Source: Eubacteriales bacterium
GTDB taxonomy: Bacteria; Bacillota; Clostridia; Saccharofermentanales; DTU023
DNA length: 35,395 nucleotides
NCBI GenBank assembly: GCA_030537595.1
Contig: JAUNVR010000002.1
Span: 69,750 to 105,144 of the forward strand
Reading direction: 5' to 3'
In this document: piece by piece, positions 21,659 through 30,822 of the stretch
Position numbering within the stretch: position 1 is the first letter of the stretch
How the letters are laid out: the number at the start of each line of letters is the position of its first letter
Notes under the pieces: model-generated
The model's database searches: none
What the model was told of the DNA's origin: nothing
The model's input: the letters and a program-made list of their open reading frames with translations, nothing else
Program-made: the position numbers and the translations under genes

Positions 21659-22882
21659 ATGAATGAAGCTGACTTGTATAGACTTAGACGCTTGGCCTGG
21701 GCTGAATTTGCCCTCCTTTACTTTCAAAAGCAAAAGTTCCCGCATAAATTACGCTATTTACTGATCGAGGATAGTTTAGCCCTGATTGGCGAAGAGCTTG
21801 GACTTGAAACTTTAGTAGCTCATCCTCTCGAGCCTAGGCCAAATCTTAGTCGCGAGGAATACCAGCTGAGTGAAGCTGTAAAATTTGTAAAAGCTGATTT
21901 TTTAAAAGAGTCTTTGGCCTTAATTCGAAAAGTTCCAGAAACTGACTTGAAGAAGGACCTTTTAAAGACAAGTACAGATGTGATTATTTGGTCAGCTCGG
22001 GAATATCCTGAACGGGTGATAAATTCGAATCGGCCAGCCCTATTTATCTGGACCCGTGGTCCAGCGCGTGAACTACTCTACGCAGAGCATACGGCCGCGG
22101 TGATTGGCAGTCGTAGTGCAAGTGGTTATGGGCTGAAGGTGGCAGGAGAATTAGCTAAGGTCCTAGCAGATTATTCGATTTGCTTAGTTAGTGGCTTGGC
22201 GCGGGGGATAGATAGTACTGGACAAACTGCGATTTTAAACTCAGGGGGTCAAACCATTGGTGTAATGGGCGGTGGCTTCGAGCACCCTTATCCGAAGTCC
22301 TCATACAATTTATTTAATCGACTCTATCAAGACTCGCTGGTTCTAGCGGTATTCCCGCCGGAGGAGAGGACTAGACCCTGGCATTTCCCAGAGCGCAACC
22401 AATTGATTGCGGCCCTAGCTGATGAGCTATTTGTGATCGAGGCCGGGCGAAATTCTGGATCCTTGATTACAGCCCATGCCGCCTTAGATTTTGGCCGGAA
22501 TGTCTGGGCGGTTCCCGGATCAATCTATAAGGCGGAAGCATATGCTTGCAACGCTTTAATCAGTGATGGGGCAGCGCCACTATATGACTTTGCGGAGCTG
22601 CGGCGATATTTGGAGCGGCTTACAGAGTCGACTAAGCTAAAAGGAGAAGCCCAGCATCTAGTCCCCAGAAAGGAAGCTCAGATGGAAAGTTTACTGCGGG
22701 ATATTTTACTCAGCTTAGAAGAGGAGAGTTTAAGCCTAGCCGGGCTCATCAGTAAATTTAAAATTGCCGAAAAGGACTTGCGGAGTATTCTTGGCTCTGC
22801 CCTCGTGCAAGGTCTCTTGATTAATCGCGGAGGAAAATATATTTTGACAGCACAGGGCATATCAAGTATATATAGTACTTGA
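21659..22882 (+). CDS. dprA: DNA-processing protein DprA
   Basis: DprA loads RecA onto single-stranded DNA taken up during natural transformation. The 407-residue product has an N-terminal helical region, then the Rossmann-like DprA core with GSRSASGYG, SGLARGIDSTGQTAIL, FPERNQLIAALADE, EAGRNSGSLITAHAA and AVPGSIY. A C-terminal winged-helix domain (about residues 345-400, SLAGLISKFKIAEKDLRSILGS) follows. The start has AGAGG 8 bases upstream. The gene is transcribed after comM, and its 3' end contains the topA promoter and a palindrome across its stop codon. Many Firmicutes carry dprA and topA side by side even when no competence has been shown, so presence does not prove transformability. Confidence 0.95.
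   Translation: MNEADLYRLRRLAWAEFALLYFQKQKFPHKLRYLLIEDSLALIGEELGLETLVAHPLEPRPNLSREEYQLSEAVKFVKADFLKESLALIRKVPETDLKKDLLKTSTDVIIWSAREYPERVINSNRPALFIWTRGPARELLYAEHTAAVIGSRSASGYGLKVAGELAKVLADYSICLVSGLARGIDSTGQTAILNSGGQTIGVMGGGFEHPYPKSSYNLFNRLYQDSLVLAVFPPEERTRPWHFPERNQLIAALADELFVIEAGRNSGSLITAHAALDFGRNVWAVPGSIYKAEAYACNALISDGAAPLYDFAELRRYLERLTESTKLKGEAQHLVPRKEAQMESLLRDILLSLEEESLSLAGLISKFKIAEKDLRSILGSALVQGLLINRGGKYILTAQGISSIYST
22844..22872 (+). promoter_or_regulatory. Promoter of topA inside the end of dprA
   Basis: A perfect -35 TTGACA (22844-22849) is followed after 17 bases by TATATA (22867-22872, four of six). The predicted transcript starts near 22880, giving a leader of only about 22 bases before the topA ATG with its AAGGAGG site. 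TATAGT at 22871 is a better hexamer but would need a 21-base spacer. Confidence 0.6.
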
Positions 22883-22883
22883 T
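22861..22883. repeat. Palindrome covering the topA -10 region
   Basis: ATCAAGTA (22861-22868) and TACTTGAT (22876-22883) are perfect 8-bp inverted arms around a 7-base centre TATATAG. The element sits over the -10 and start site of the topA promoter and overlaps the dprA stop codon, the geometry of a repressor operator. No T-run follows, so it is not a terminator. Confidence 0.6.
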
Positions 22884-22901
22884 TCATCTAAGGAGGATTC
22901 C

Positions 22902-25094
22902 ATGGGCAAAACACTGATTATTGTTGAGTCACCGGCAAAAGCAAACACGATTGGCAGGTATCTAGGTAAGGACTATGAGGTGATGGCCTCAGTGGGTCAC
23001 GTCAGGGATTTACCGACCTCAACTTTGGGGGTTAATACCGCCCAGAATTTCAAGCCGCTCTACATTACTATGCCCGGTAAGGAATCTGTGCTCGCTGCTT
23101 TGAAAAAGAAAAAGCAAAGTGCGGACCGCGTTCTCTTGGCGACTGACCCGGACCGCGAAGGTGAGGCGATTGCTTGGCACTTGGCTCAGGCTTTGAAGCT
23201 GGATCCAAGTGAGAATTGTCGGATCAGTTTTAATGAGATTACGAAGAAGGCAATCCTCGAAAATATTGAAAAACCACGCCCCTTAGATATGAATCTAGTT
23301 GATGCCCAGCAAGGACGCAGAATTTTAGATCGTCTAGTCGGCTATGAGCTCAGCCCCCTGCTTTGGGAAAAGATTCAAAAAGGTTTGTCTGCAGGCCGTG
23401 TACAGTCTGTTGCCTGCAAACTTTTAGTCGATCGGGAGCGGGCCATTCAGGCCTTCGAACCTGAAGAGTACTGGTTACTAAAGGCGATTTTACAAAGCTC
23501 TAAAACAGAGCCGAGCTTTGTTGCGCGCTACCACGGTCAGTTAAAGGATGGCAAGGTCAGTAAGCGAACAATCCCCAATGAGGAGAGTTGCAAAGAGATT
23601 CTGGCTTATTTAAAAGAGCAGGACTTTGTCCTCTCAGAATTAAAAAAGCGCAATCTTAAACGCCAGTCTTATCCACCCTTTACCACCTCGACCCTACAGC
23701 AGGAAGCTTCGCGCTATCTAAACTTCTCTGCGGGCAGAACGATGCGTGCAGCTCAGCAATTATATGAAGGTATAAAACTTTCTGAGGAAGGCCAGACCTC
23801 ATTAATTTCATATATTAGAACTGACTCATTAAGAATTTCGACCGAGGCTATTGCCCCGGCCAGAGATTATATTGAGCGGCGTTATGGGGCAGAATACCTA
23901 CCCCCGAAGCCGCGTTTCTTTAAGAATAAAAGAGCGGCACAGGATGCGCACGAGGCCATCCGGCCAATTCACTTTGACCTACCTCCGGAAAAGCTCCGCT
24001 CAGAGCTCGGGGGAGACCAGTTTAAACTCTATAAGTTAATTTGGGATAAATTCATTGCCTCTCAGATGGAAGCGGCCAAAATTGAAAGCATCAATTTACA
24101 GATCTTAGCCGGAATTGAAGTTTTCAAGGCCCGTGGCGAGCGGGTAATTTTCCCGGGTTGGCAAGCGGTCTACGGCTTTAAAGAAGAAAGTGCCGAAGAC
24201 GATGAAAAGGCAGATTTACCCGAGCTTAGTGAAGGGCAAAAACTGCTCTTAGAAAAACTTGAGCATGAGCAAAAGTTCACCCAGCCTCCGGCTCGCTATA
24301 CCGAAGCTTCGCTAATTAAGGAGATGGAAGAAAAAGGAATTGGTCGTCCCTCAACCTACGCACCTACCATCAATACCTTATTCAATCGACGCTATGCCGA
24401 AAAGGATGGGCGCAGCCTGATTCCCAGTGAGCTTTGCTTCCTCGTGACTGTGATGTTGGAAGAGAATTTTGCAAACATCGTTGACTCTGAGTTCACAGCT
24501 CGCATGGAGTCTCAGCTCGACACGGTCGAGGAGGGGAAGAAAGACTGGGTAGAGGTATTGTCTGAGTTTTATCCTAGCTTCCATGAGCAGGTCGAAAAGG
24601 CTGCTAAGACAGTCGAGAAGCATGAGTTCCCGGAAGAGAAGATTGGTGAAAAATGTCCGGAGTGTAAAGACGGCGATTTAGTCAAAAAGCATGGACGTTT
24701 TGGCCAGTTTATTGCCTGCACCAACTATCCGGACTGCCGCTATACGAGAAATATCGAAGAGCGTGCTGAGGGCAAGTGTCCGATCTGTGGCTCTGGCCTA
24801 CTGATCAAACGCCGTAGAAAGCGCCCAAGCTCGATCTTCTATGTCTGTGCAAAAGAGGCTGACAAGCCTGATTGTGACTTCATTTCCTGGGATTTACCAA
24901 TCGAGAAGAATTGTCCAAGCTGCGGTGCCTATATGGTCAAAAAGCGTTATCGAAATCGCTTTTTTGAACGCTGTTCTAATCCTGATTGTGAAAGCAATAA
25001 AAGCCGGAGCAAAAGCAAAAAAACTAAAGCAAGTAAGTCTAAGCCTAAGACTGATCCTGAGGCCAAGCCCGAAAAGAAGAGCGAGGCAGAATAG
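22902..25094 (+). CDS. topA: DNA topoisomerase I
   Basis: This type IA enzyme relaxes negative supercoils. The 730-residue product opens with the Toprim domain (LIIVESPAKANTIGRYLG; acidic triad in DPDREGEAIAWHL), then the gate domains with the active-site tyrosine in SYIRTDSLRIS (Tyr304) and KEMEEKGIGRPSTYA. The C-terminus carries three zinc-ribbon modules: CPEC...CTNYPDC, CPICGSG...C...DC and CPSCGAY...CSNPDC. A lysine/serine-rich tail of about 30 residues follows. AAGGAGG lies 8 bases before the ATG. Neighbours dprA and trmFO match the order seen in many Firmicutes. The -10 palindrome suggests dedicated control, plausible for a gene whose product sets supercoiling. Confidence 0.97.
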   Translation: MGKTLIIVESPAKANTIGRYLGKDYEVMASVGHVRDLPTSTLGVNTAQNFKPLYITMPGKESVLAALKKKKQSADRVLLATDPDREGEAIAWHLAQALKLDPSENCRISFNEITKKAILENIEKPRPLDMNLVDAQQGRRILDRLVGYELSPLLWEKIQKGLSAGRVQSVACKLLVDRERAIQAFEPEEYWLLKAILQSSKTEPSFVARYHGQLKDGKVSKRTIPNEESCKEILAYLKEQDFVLSELKKRNLKRQSYPPFTTSTLQQEASRYLNFSAGRTMRAAQQLYEGIKLSEEGQTSLISYIRTDSLRISTEAIAPARDYIERRYGAEYLPPKPRFFKNKRAAQDAHEAIRPIHFDLPPEKLRSELGGDQFKLYKLIWDKFIASQMEAAKIESINLQILAGIEVFKARGERVIFPGWQAVYGFKEESAEDDEKADLPELSEGQKLLLEKLEHEQKFTQPPARYTEASLIKEMEEKGIGRPSTYAPTINTLFNRRYAEKDGRSLIPSELCFLVTVMLEENFANIVDSEFTARMESQLDTVEEGKKDWVEVLSEFYPSFHEQVEKAAKTVEKHEFPEEKIGEKCPECKDGDLVKKHGRFGQFIACTNYPDCRYTRNIEERAEGKCPICGSGLLIKRRRKRPSSIFYVCAKEADKPDCDFISWDLPIEKNCPSCGAYMVKKRYRNRFFERCSNPDCESNKSRSKSKKTKASKSKPKTDPEAKPEKKSEAE

Positions 25095-29271: not shown

Positions 29272-29424
29272 ATGAAACGTATTAAAATTGTCCAGAAACC
29301 TTGTTTAGTCAAGAAAATGCACAGCATGGCCTGTGGCGAGTGTCAAACTTCTTGCCAATCGGCTTGCAAGACTTCTTGCACAGTCGGTAACCAACCGTGT
29401 GAGAACCCGGAGGTTAGAAAATAA
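29272..29424 (+). CDS. scfA: SCIFF-family RiPP precursor peptide
   Basis: This 50-residue peptide is a SCIFF precursor, the widespread clostridial substrate for thioether crosslinking (ranthipeptide type). The C-terminal core CGECQTSCQSACKTSC followed by TVGNQPCE is the family hallmark, with six cysteines at 21, 24, 28, 32, 36 and 43. In the characterised homologue CteA from Clostridium thermocellum, as I recall, the maturase links Cys32 to Thr37; this peptide has Cys32 and Thr37 at those positions. A seventh cysteine, Cys11, lies in the leader (IVQKPCLVKK), which is unusual for a family named for six. GAGG lies about 8 bases before the ATG. The TAA directly abuts the TTG of the maturase gene. 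The mature function is not established. Confidence 0.93.
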   Translation: MKRIKIVQKPCLVKKMHSMACGECQTSCQSACKTSCTVGNQPCENPEVRK

Positions 29425-30822
29425 TTGCTGCATCAATTTGAGCTTTTTGAGAAGTGCTTCGCTTACGATTCAGAAAGCGGAGCCCTTCTTCGTTTAGATG
29501 AGATTTCAGCTGCAGTTTTGCAGCTTTTTCGTGCGCACGAAGGCCAAAGACCGAGTGAGGCTGAGCTTGCCCAGCTCGCAAGACGCTACTCGCTTGATTT
29601 TTCTGAGCTAAAGGAAACGGCAGATGATTTCGAGCAATTAATTGCCGAAGAATATCTTTTCCATCCAGAACATCATTTGACCTTGGCCGAACTCTATCCA
29701 GATGGGCCTAAGTTTAAGGCGATGTGTTTGAATATCTGCCATGACTGTAATATGCGCTGCACTTACTGTTTTGCGGGCACTGGTGATTACGGTCATGAGC
29801 GTTCAATGATGTCTTATGAGACTGGTTGTCAAGCAATCGACTTCCTCGTAAGAGAGTCTGGCAAACGGCGCAACCTGGATATTGACTTTTTCGGTGGCGA
29901 ACCACTTTTGAACTGGCCAGTAGTTAAGGATTTGGTTTATTACTGTCGTGAAATTGAAAAGCGCAGCGGTAAAAATTTGCGCCTAACCTTGACGACTAAC
30001 TGTAGTTTATTGTCTGAAGAAAAGATTAAATTCATCAATGAGCATTTTGCAAATGTAGTTTTATCGATTGATGGGCGTGAGAAGATTCATGATAAAATGC
30101 GTCCTTTTACAGGCGGACGTGCTTCGCATCAATTTATAGTCGATAAAATTCGCCGCTTTGTGGAACTCAGGGGTGATAAGAGCTATTATCTGCGCGGTAC
30201 ATTCACAGCTCATAACCTGGACTTTGCAGAGGACGTTTTCGCTCTTGCAGAGCTCGGGGCGCAGGTATCTTTGGAACCAGTTGTAGCTCCGCCGGAGTTA
30301 GACTACAGTATTGGGCCGCAGCATTTAGAGCAGATTAAAAGGGAGTATGAGCGTCTAGGGAAGCTTCTCTCGGAGTCTGAACTTAGGGGCGAGAATATCA
30401 ACTTCTTCCACTTTAATATCTATTTACAGGGCGGACCATGCCTTTATAAGCGTGCTAAGGGATGCGGGGTTGGGACAGAGTATTGTGCGGTCACCCCGAC
30501 TGGAGATATCTACCCCTGCCACCAATTGGTGGGTGAGGAGCAGTTTATTTTAGGCAATGTTGCAACTGTCGCAGAAGAGGGCCTAAGGTCAGACTACCTG
30601 GGTCTATTCAAACGCCTCCTCTTACCAGATAAGGATGCGTGCCGGGCCTGCTGGGCGCGTTACTTCTGCAGTGGCGGTTGTGCGGCAAATGCCTACTTTG
30701 CCTGTGGTGATCCCGATGCTATCTCAGAAATAAACTGTGAGCTACAGAAAAAGCGCTTGGAAGTGTCCTTGTGGTTAGAAAATGAGCGGAGGGAAAGAAG
30801 AGAAATGAGAGATCACGCCTAA
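29425..30822 (+). CDS. scfB: SCIFF peptide maturase, radical SAM/SPASM
   Basis: This 465-residue enzyme matures the upstream peptide by forming cysteine-based thioether bonds. Residues 1-90 (FELFEKCFAYDSESGALLRLDE onward) form the peptide-recognition (RRE-like) region. The radical SAM motif is CNMRCTYC (Cys108, Cys112, Cys115), followed by DIDFFGGEPLLNWP and TLTTNCSLL. The SPASM region near the C-terminus contains GGPCLYKRAKGCGVGTEYC, YPCHQL and CRACWARYFCSGGC, which should bind two auxiliary 4Fe-4S clusters. The start is TTG immediately after the scfA stop, with GGAGG (29409-29413) inside scfA, so translation of the pair is coupled. A terminator follows at 30857. Confidence 0.95.
   Translation: MLHQFELFEKCFAYDSESGALLRLDEISAAVLQLFRAHEGQRPSEAELAQLARRYSLDFSELKETADDFEQLIAEEYLFHPEHHLTLAELYPDGPKFKAMCLNICHDCNMRCTYCFAGTGDYGHERSMMSYETGCQAIDFLVRESGKRRNLDIDFFGGEPLLNWPVVKDLVYYCREIEKRSGKNLRLTLTTNCSLLSEEKIKFINEHFANVVLSIDGREKIHDKMRPFTGGRASHQFIVDKIRRFVELRGDKSYYLRGTFTAHNLDFAEDVFALAELGAQVSLEPVVAPPELDYSIGPQHLEQIKREYERLGKLLSESELRGENINFFHFNIYLQGGPCLYKRAKGCGVGTEYCAVTPTGDIYPCHQLVGEEQFILGNVATVAEEGLRSDYLGLFKRLLLPDKDACRACWARYFCSGGCAANAYFACGDPDAISEINCELQKKRLEVSLWLENERRERREMRDHA

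Follow-up and report, generated by a model that had tools for sequence, protein, structure and literature searches.

The window, i.e. the whole stretch of 35,395 nucleotides that was analysed, carries genes in the order comM/yifB, dprA, topA, trmFO, queA, tgt and yajC, followed by those for a SCIFF peptide and its maturase, the names queA, tgt and yajC being the ones we presume from the translations. The open reading frame of dprA (21659..22882, plus strand) matched NCBIfam TIGR00732 with an E-value of 1.5e-51 and 174.7 bits, under the cut-off of 191.15, and ends with the stop codon TGA at 22880-22882, 19 nt ahead of topA. The topA gene (22902..25094, plus strand, ATG at 22902) codes for a DNA topoisomerase I of 730 aa (NCBIfam TIGR01051, 782 bits vs a cut-off of 456.4) and is preceded by the Shine-Dalgarno sequence AAGGAGG at 22890..22896. 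The relatives of this topA in named records are Saccharofermentans, which NCBI places in the Oscillospiraceae, and other Clostridia metagenome assemblies; a search of the literature on Saccharofermentans topoisomerase found nothing evidently related. Further downstream, an open reading frame of 50 aa with several cysteines (29272-29424) lies directly 5' of the SCIFF maturase gene (29425-30822) and presumably codes for the SCIFF precursor peptide.

Inspection of the 3' end of dprA revealed a promoter-like element on the plus strand that is spanned entirely by the dprA reading frame. The -35 hexamer TTGACA (22844..22849) doubles as the DprA codons TTG ACA, coding for Leu-Thr in the peptide KYILTAQG, and is followed by a spacer of 17 nt (22850..22866) and by the -10 element TATATA (22867..22872; at the start of the tract TATATATAG), in which an A stands where a T is usual. 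The two palindrome arms, ATCAAGTA at 22861..22868 and TACTTGAT at 22876..22883, bracket the sequence TATATAG, and the right arm holds the dprA stop codon together with the transcription start region of topA predicted from the spacing (about 22878-22881). The first-pass annotation had described TTGACA, the 17-base spacer, TATATA and perfect arms of 8 bp, and all of these were read directly at exactly the positions given there. With at most one mismatch allowed, the 35-kb window contains a single TTGACA-N17-TATATA vs 0.07 expected. A sigma-70 promoter scan of the window did not call the topA site, because the hexamer is TATATA, with A replacing T at the sixth base. On the minus strand, a promoter-like site at 22836-22865 (TTGATA, 18 nt, TATATT; 10 of 12 positions) overlaps the topA promoter and could give an antisense RNA into dprA or could be a chance match in A/T-rich DNA.

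The region upstream of topA was compared across the order. The topA start was found by motif in 119 of the 124 loci taken, belonging to four families, and the counts refer to these 119; four of the five loci left out carry TTGACA-N17-TATATT, the fifth being L203. Perfect TTGACA-N17/18-TATATA was found before topA in 83 of the 119 genomes vs 1 of 5950 shuffled regions, with a spacer of 17 nt in 76 cases and of 18 nt in seven. By family, the perfect form is present in 32 of 34 genomes of f1, to which the window belongs, 34 of 61 of f2, 13 of 16 of f3 and four of eight of f4; 18 of the 25 genera contain at least one such case, the genomes of the order being related and the counts accordingly not independent. 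The 36 genomes without the perfect form belong mainly to genus f2g8, where it is present in nine of 32 and where the other genomes show TATTTT, AATGAT or TATAGT at the same register, TATATT being seen in four further loci. Among the best topA sites, TTGACA is perfect in 111 of 118 and has one mismatch in the remaining seven.

Genus-balanced column information was 1.5-2.0 bits in the -35, 1.1-1.75 bits in the -10 and at most 0.4 bits in most spacer columns. Beside the hexamers, a T just 5' of TTGACA, a T five bases 5' of TATATA (22862 in the window) and the G adjoining TATATA (22866) are also kept. The latter two, which lie in the spacer, are not conserved in 101 other promoters of the form TTGACA-N17/18-TATAAT from the same genomes, these being the distinct strings among the matches listed of 433 TATAAT sites, which indicates an element specific to topA and not the general promoter of the lineage. 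Outside the order, none of 66 topA loci of other groups has TATATA at 17-18 nt, one having it at 16 nt behind GTGACA, and 11 have a TATAAT-like -10. The topA upstream regions of Bacillus type (L062, L066, L090 and L103) resemble the present ones in carrying TTGACA, while differing from them in a spacer of 18 with AATAAT or CATAAT, i.e. with T at -7.

The position of the -35 relative to the dprA end was determined in the 83 perfect cases. It falls within dprA in 47, spans the stop codon (T-TGA-CA) in six and lies past the stop in 24, and in the other six no dprA ORF end was found. The C-terminus of DprA contains a conserved Tyr/Phe-x-Leu-Thr. This Leu-Thr coincides with the -35 in 73 genomes, of which 67 encode it by TTG-ACA and six by TTG-ACT, background use in the same dprA genes being about 0.18 for TTG and about 0.28 for ACA. 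In f1g2, the one genus whose promoter is situated downstream of dprA, the -35 follows the Leu-Thr codons by 40-82 nt. Leu is encoded there by TTA, CTA or CTG and Thr by ACT or ACA, and TTG-ACA occurs in none of the seven cases; L256 has an eighth Leu-Thr that does not coincide with the -35 and that is internal. The ORF 5' of topA in L023, L030, L027 and L126 (f1g4 and f1g6) ends early, lacking the C-terminal Leu-Thr segment of DprA, and the topA promoter is kept in these loci.

It might be argued that the motif is kept solely through the DprA codons, with the -10 merely supplying the dprA stop (ATA TAA) and no promoter being present, and the dprA TAA does fall inside TATATAA, 27 nt past the first base of the -35, in nine of the 119 genomes. 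This explanation is scarcely tenable, since the motif persists in the genomes in which it lies past the dprA end or has the stop within its -35, and since the TTG-ACA pair is lost where the promoter sits elsewhere. As judged from these cases, the conserved promoter is not a by-product of the DprA codons and has stayed in place while the dprA end moved around it. The claim of the first-pass annotation that a topA promoter is hidden in the end of dprA is thus strongly supported by the comparison, the element being conserved at the nucleotide level in four families independently of the DprA frame. The locus would also illustrate cleanly how a promoter can dictate which codons the gene upstream uses, with f1g2 as a natural control genus.

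The -10 of topA deviates from the usual TATAAT in that, in the 17-nt register, the A at -11 is present and the T at -7 is absent. Position -7 is A in 92 of the 118 best topA sites and in 81 of 86 outside f2g8, and TATAAT occurs 16-18 nt after TTGACA in none of the 119 topA upstream regions, the set from which we take it that no TATAAT site is at topA. In 59 genomes, TTGACA-N17/18-TATAAT was found at 433 sites vs 28 for the backward control, and TTGACA-N17/18-TATATA at 89 sites vs 41 for the backward-pattern control. Of these 89, 43 are at topA (topA coordinates from 56 of the 59 genomes were used) and the other 46 match the control, so that outside topA TATATA with a TTGACA -35 scarcely serves as a promoter. 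A second TTGACA-N17-TATATA site is present in the genome of the window on contig C8, and a recurrent one with similar spacer ends occurs away from topA once each in three f3g9 genomes (G038:C44, G046:C252 and G043:C50).

The spacing between the -35 and TATATA is the optimal 17-18 nt, and in 29 of the 83 perfect cases a TATAAT can also be read 19 nt after TTGACA, within the 8-mer TATATAAT, nearly always where the first spacer is 17 nt. The functional -10 could accordingly be this TATAAT, in which case, according to a twist model, the long spacer would make the alignment of -35 and -10, and hence activity, rise with negative supercoiling. In the model, as far as it is given in the available part of PMC9303308, strongly negative supercoiling favours long spacers, and sub-optimal spacing is also used by mycobacterial topoI promoters (PMC4770202, available part). 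Against this, the hexamer at that position in the window is TATATA, and TATATATA, TATATATG and TATATATT are found in 33, 16 and five of the 83 cases, so that T at -7 is not conserved in the 19-nt register. Genus f2g8 moreover has T at -7 in the 17-nt register (TATTTT, TATAGT, TATATT), which favours the latter as the true -10. The flanking columns of other promoters do not separate the registers, a T at -19 that stood out among 24 of them having faded among the 101. We regard use of the 19-nt register as unlikely and take TATATA at 17-18 nt provisionally as the -10.

The palindrome was the other element to which a role had been ascribed: the first-pass annotation proposed a real promoter whose -10 and start site are covered by a repressor operator or by a cruciform sensing superhelicity. 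The perfect 8-bp arms are placed exactly around the -10. Dinucleotide shuffling of the 61 nt produced such arms at the same spot in 26 of 5000 runs, or in 58 of 5000 with the promoter hexamers fixed; the arms fold as single-strand DNA with -5.2 kcal/mol (z -4.7). In the window as a whole, perfect inverted repeats with arms of at least 8 and loops of 3-12 number 10 vs 5.25 +/- 2.5 in shuffles, and the topA palindrome is thus locally unusual and across the window not remarkable. As to RNA, a read-through transcript folds the arms with -13.2 kcal/mol over 71 nt (z -1.2), and for an RNA that begins at the predicted start the fold has -8.7 kcal/mol (z 0.75); an Rfam family search of 22500-23200 returned no hit. 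Copies of the palindrome with at most three mismatches in the genome of the window number seven forward matches including itself vs 11 for the control. For cruciform extrusion, arms of 8 bp around a loop of 7 nt are short.

Comparison of the 118 topA regions, the check that the first-pass annotation itself had suggested, revealed the arms in no relative examined, and near the element 86 of the 118 lack perfect inverted repeats of at least 6. Those in the remaining regions are of different sequence and come chiefly from a subclade of f2g8 (TATATTTTT-aatt-AAAAATATA) and from two genomes of f1g7, which have theirs inside the spacer; that such repeats occur nearby may be counted in favour of an operator. 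The sole other species of the genus sampled lacks dprA and topA, and the palindrome may be genus-specific. An operator or cruciform at this place is, in our judgement, decidedly improbable, and we regard the palindrome as a feature that, within the genomes sampled, is private to that of the window, and assign it no role. What stands of the earlier reading is the conserved topA promoter overlapping dprA, whereas the role given to the palindrome gained no positive evidence. In f1g7, the inverted repeat upstream of topA in L129 and L140 reads GACATAT...ATATGTC and is located between -35 and -10, where MerR-type regulators bind elsewhere.

The ATATAT cores centred at 22839.5 and 22870.5 could alternatively represent a pair of NrdR boxes through which NrdR with dATP would repress topA. 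Their distance of 31 bp fits the box pairs described in the available part of PMC12051234, with 15-16 bp between boxes, nrdR was found in 58 of the 59 genomes, and the topA cores are the best-scoring pair in the window. A weight matrix was built from boxes collected at nrdD in the order, with flanks CAC...GTG. With this matrix, the topA site scored 8.5 + 0.3 bits vs 22 bits for the nrdD box of the same genome (CCACAATATATTGTGG), most nrdD pairs of relatives scored 16-34 bits, and no pair upstream of topA in any relative scored like these, the best reaching 8.0 bits (L022). NrdR control of topA was rejected on these scores, far below those of nrdD boxes in both the own genome and the relatives, and we give it practically no credence. 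The strong nrdD-associated box of the own genome, at L272:3889-3904, is a single one without a partner at 30-33 bp.

With the alternatives weighed above, the site is very probably a dedicated core promoter of topA, of sigma-A type, that lies within the 3' end of dprA and has been conserved across the order of Clostridia studied here. The elements, their spacing and the codon signature are conserved; that RNA polymerase uses the site is what we infer from them. RNA polymerase would recognise the (TA)n -10 (TATATA) together with the consensus -35 (TTGACA) 17-18 nt upstream of it, the latter serving most genomes at the same time as the codons of the last conserved Leu-Thr of DprA, and topA would thereby be transcribed independently of dprA. 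The A at -7 in place of the T of TATAAT would be expected to weaken opening and to leave binding good. If opening is limiting, negative supercoils might raise and relaxation might lower topA expression, a step that we put forward with less assurance than the preceding ones. That a non-consensus topA promoter is fixed in four families suggests that selection maintains a feature of its sequence.

Supercoiling control of topA is plausible here by analogy with topA biology elsewhere (PMC4770202 and PMC5055605, available parts), and the sub-consensus -10 may make opening depend on superhelicity. Topoisomerase homeostasis is also treated, for Synechocystis, in the part available of PMC9825172. The accessible text of PMC8422995 ties supercoiling sensitivity to G/C-rich discriminators. 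The GC content of the topA discriminator is 0.28 vs 0.42 in other promoters and the nearest-neighbour melting cost of the topA promoter -12.95 vs -14.6 kcal/mol, and by that discriminator rule an A/T-rich discriminator with a low melting cost argues against strong supercoiling dependence. We advance only tentatively, as possible rather than probable, that the order-wide topA promoter, with its perfect -35 and selectively kept TA-repeat -10, is a built-in superhelicity gauge written into dprA codons. If true, this would add a third type of feedback promoter for topA to the actinobacterial ones with short spacers; promoter-level knowledge of how topA senses superhelicity comes from few bacteria.

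The Salmonella leu-500 promoter, in which a defective -10 requires negative supercoiling to open, shares a non-consensus -10 with the topA promoter described here, although in leu-500 this is a single mutation in one strain and here a conserved natural -10. The mycobacterial topoI promoters (PMC4770202, available part) likewise are sigma-70-type promoters with a non-ideal element, and their link to superhelicity was measured, activity falling on relaxation; they differ in spacers of 14-16 nt, while here the spacer is 17-18 nt, the deviation lies in the -10 and a response to relaxation is a prediction. Streptomyces coelicolor topAp1, as described in the part of PMC5055605 available, is also a dedicated topA promoter, homeostatic and read by the housekeeping sigma factor, and unlike the present promoter with its 17-nt spacer and TA-rich -10 it has a GC-rich spacer of 13 nt. 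A limited literature search found nothing on dprA-topA, on a topA promoter internal to dprA or on topA with TATATA and supercoiling. Among the topA matches compared, those of G021 and G031 contain two TGA and one TAG internally, which may reflect read-through at the alignment end, recoding or decay.
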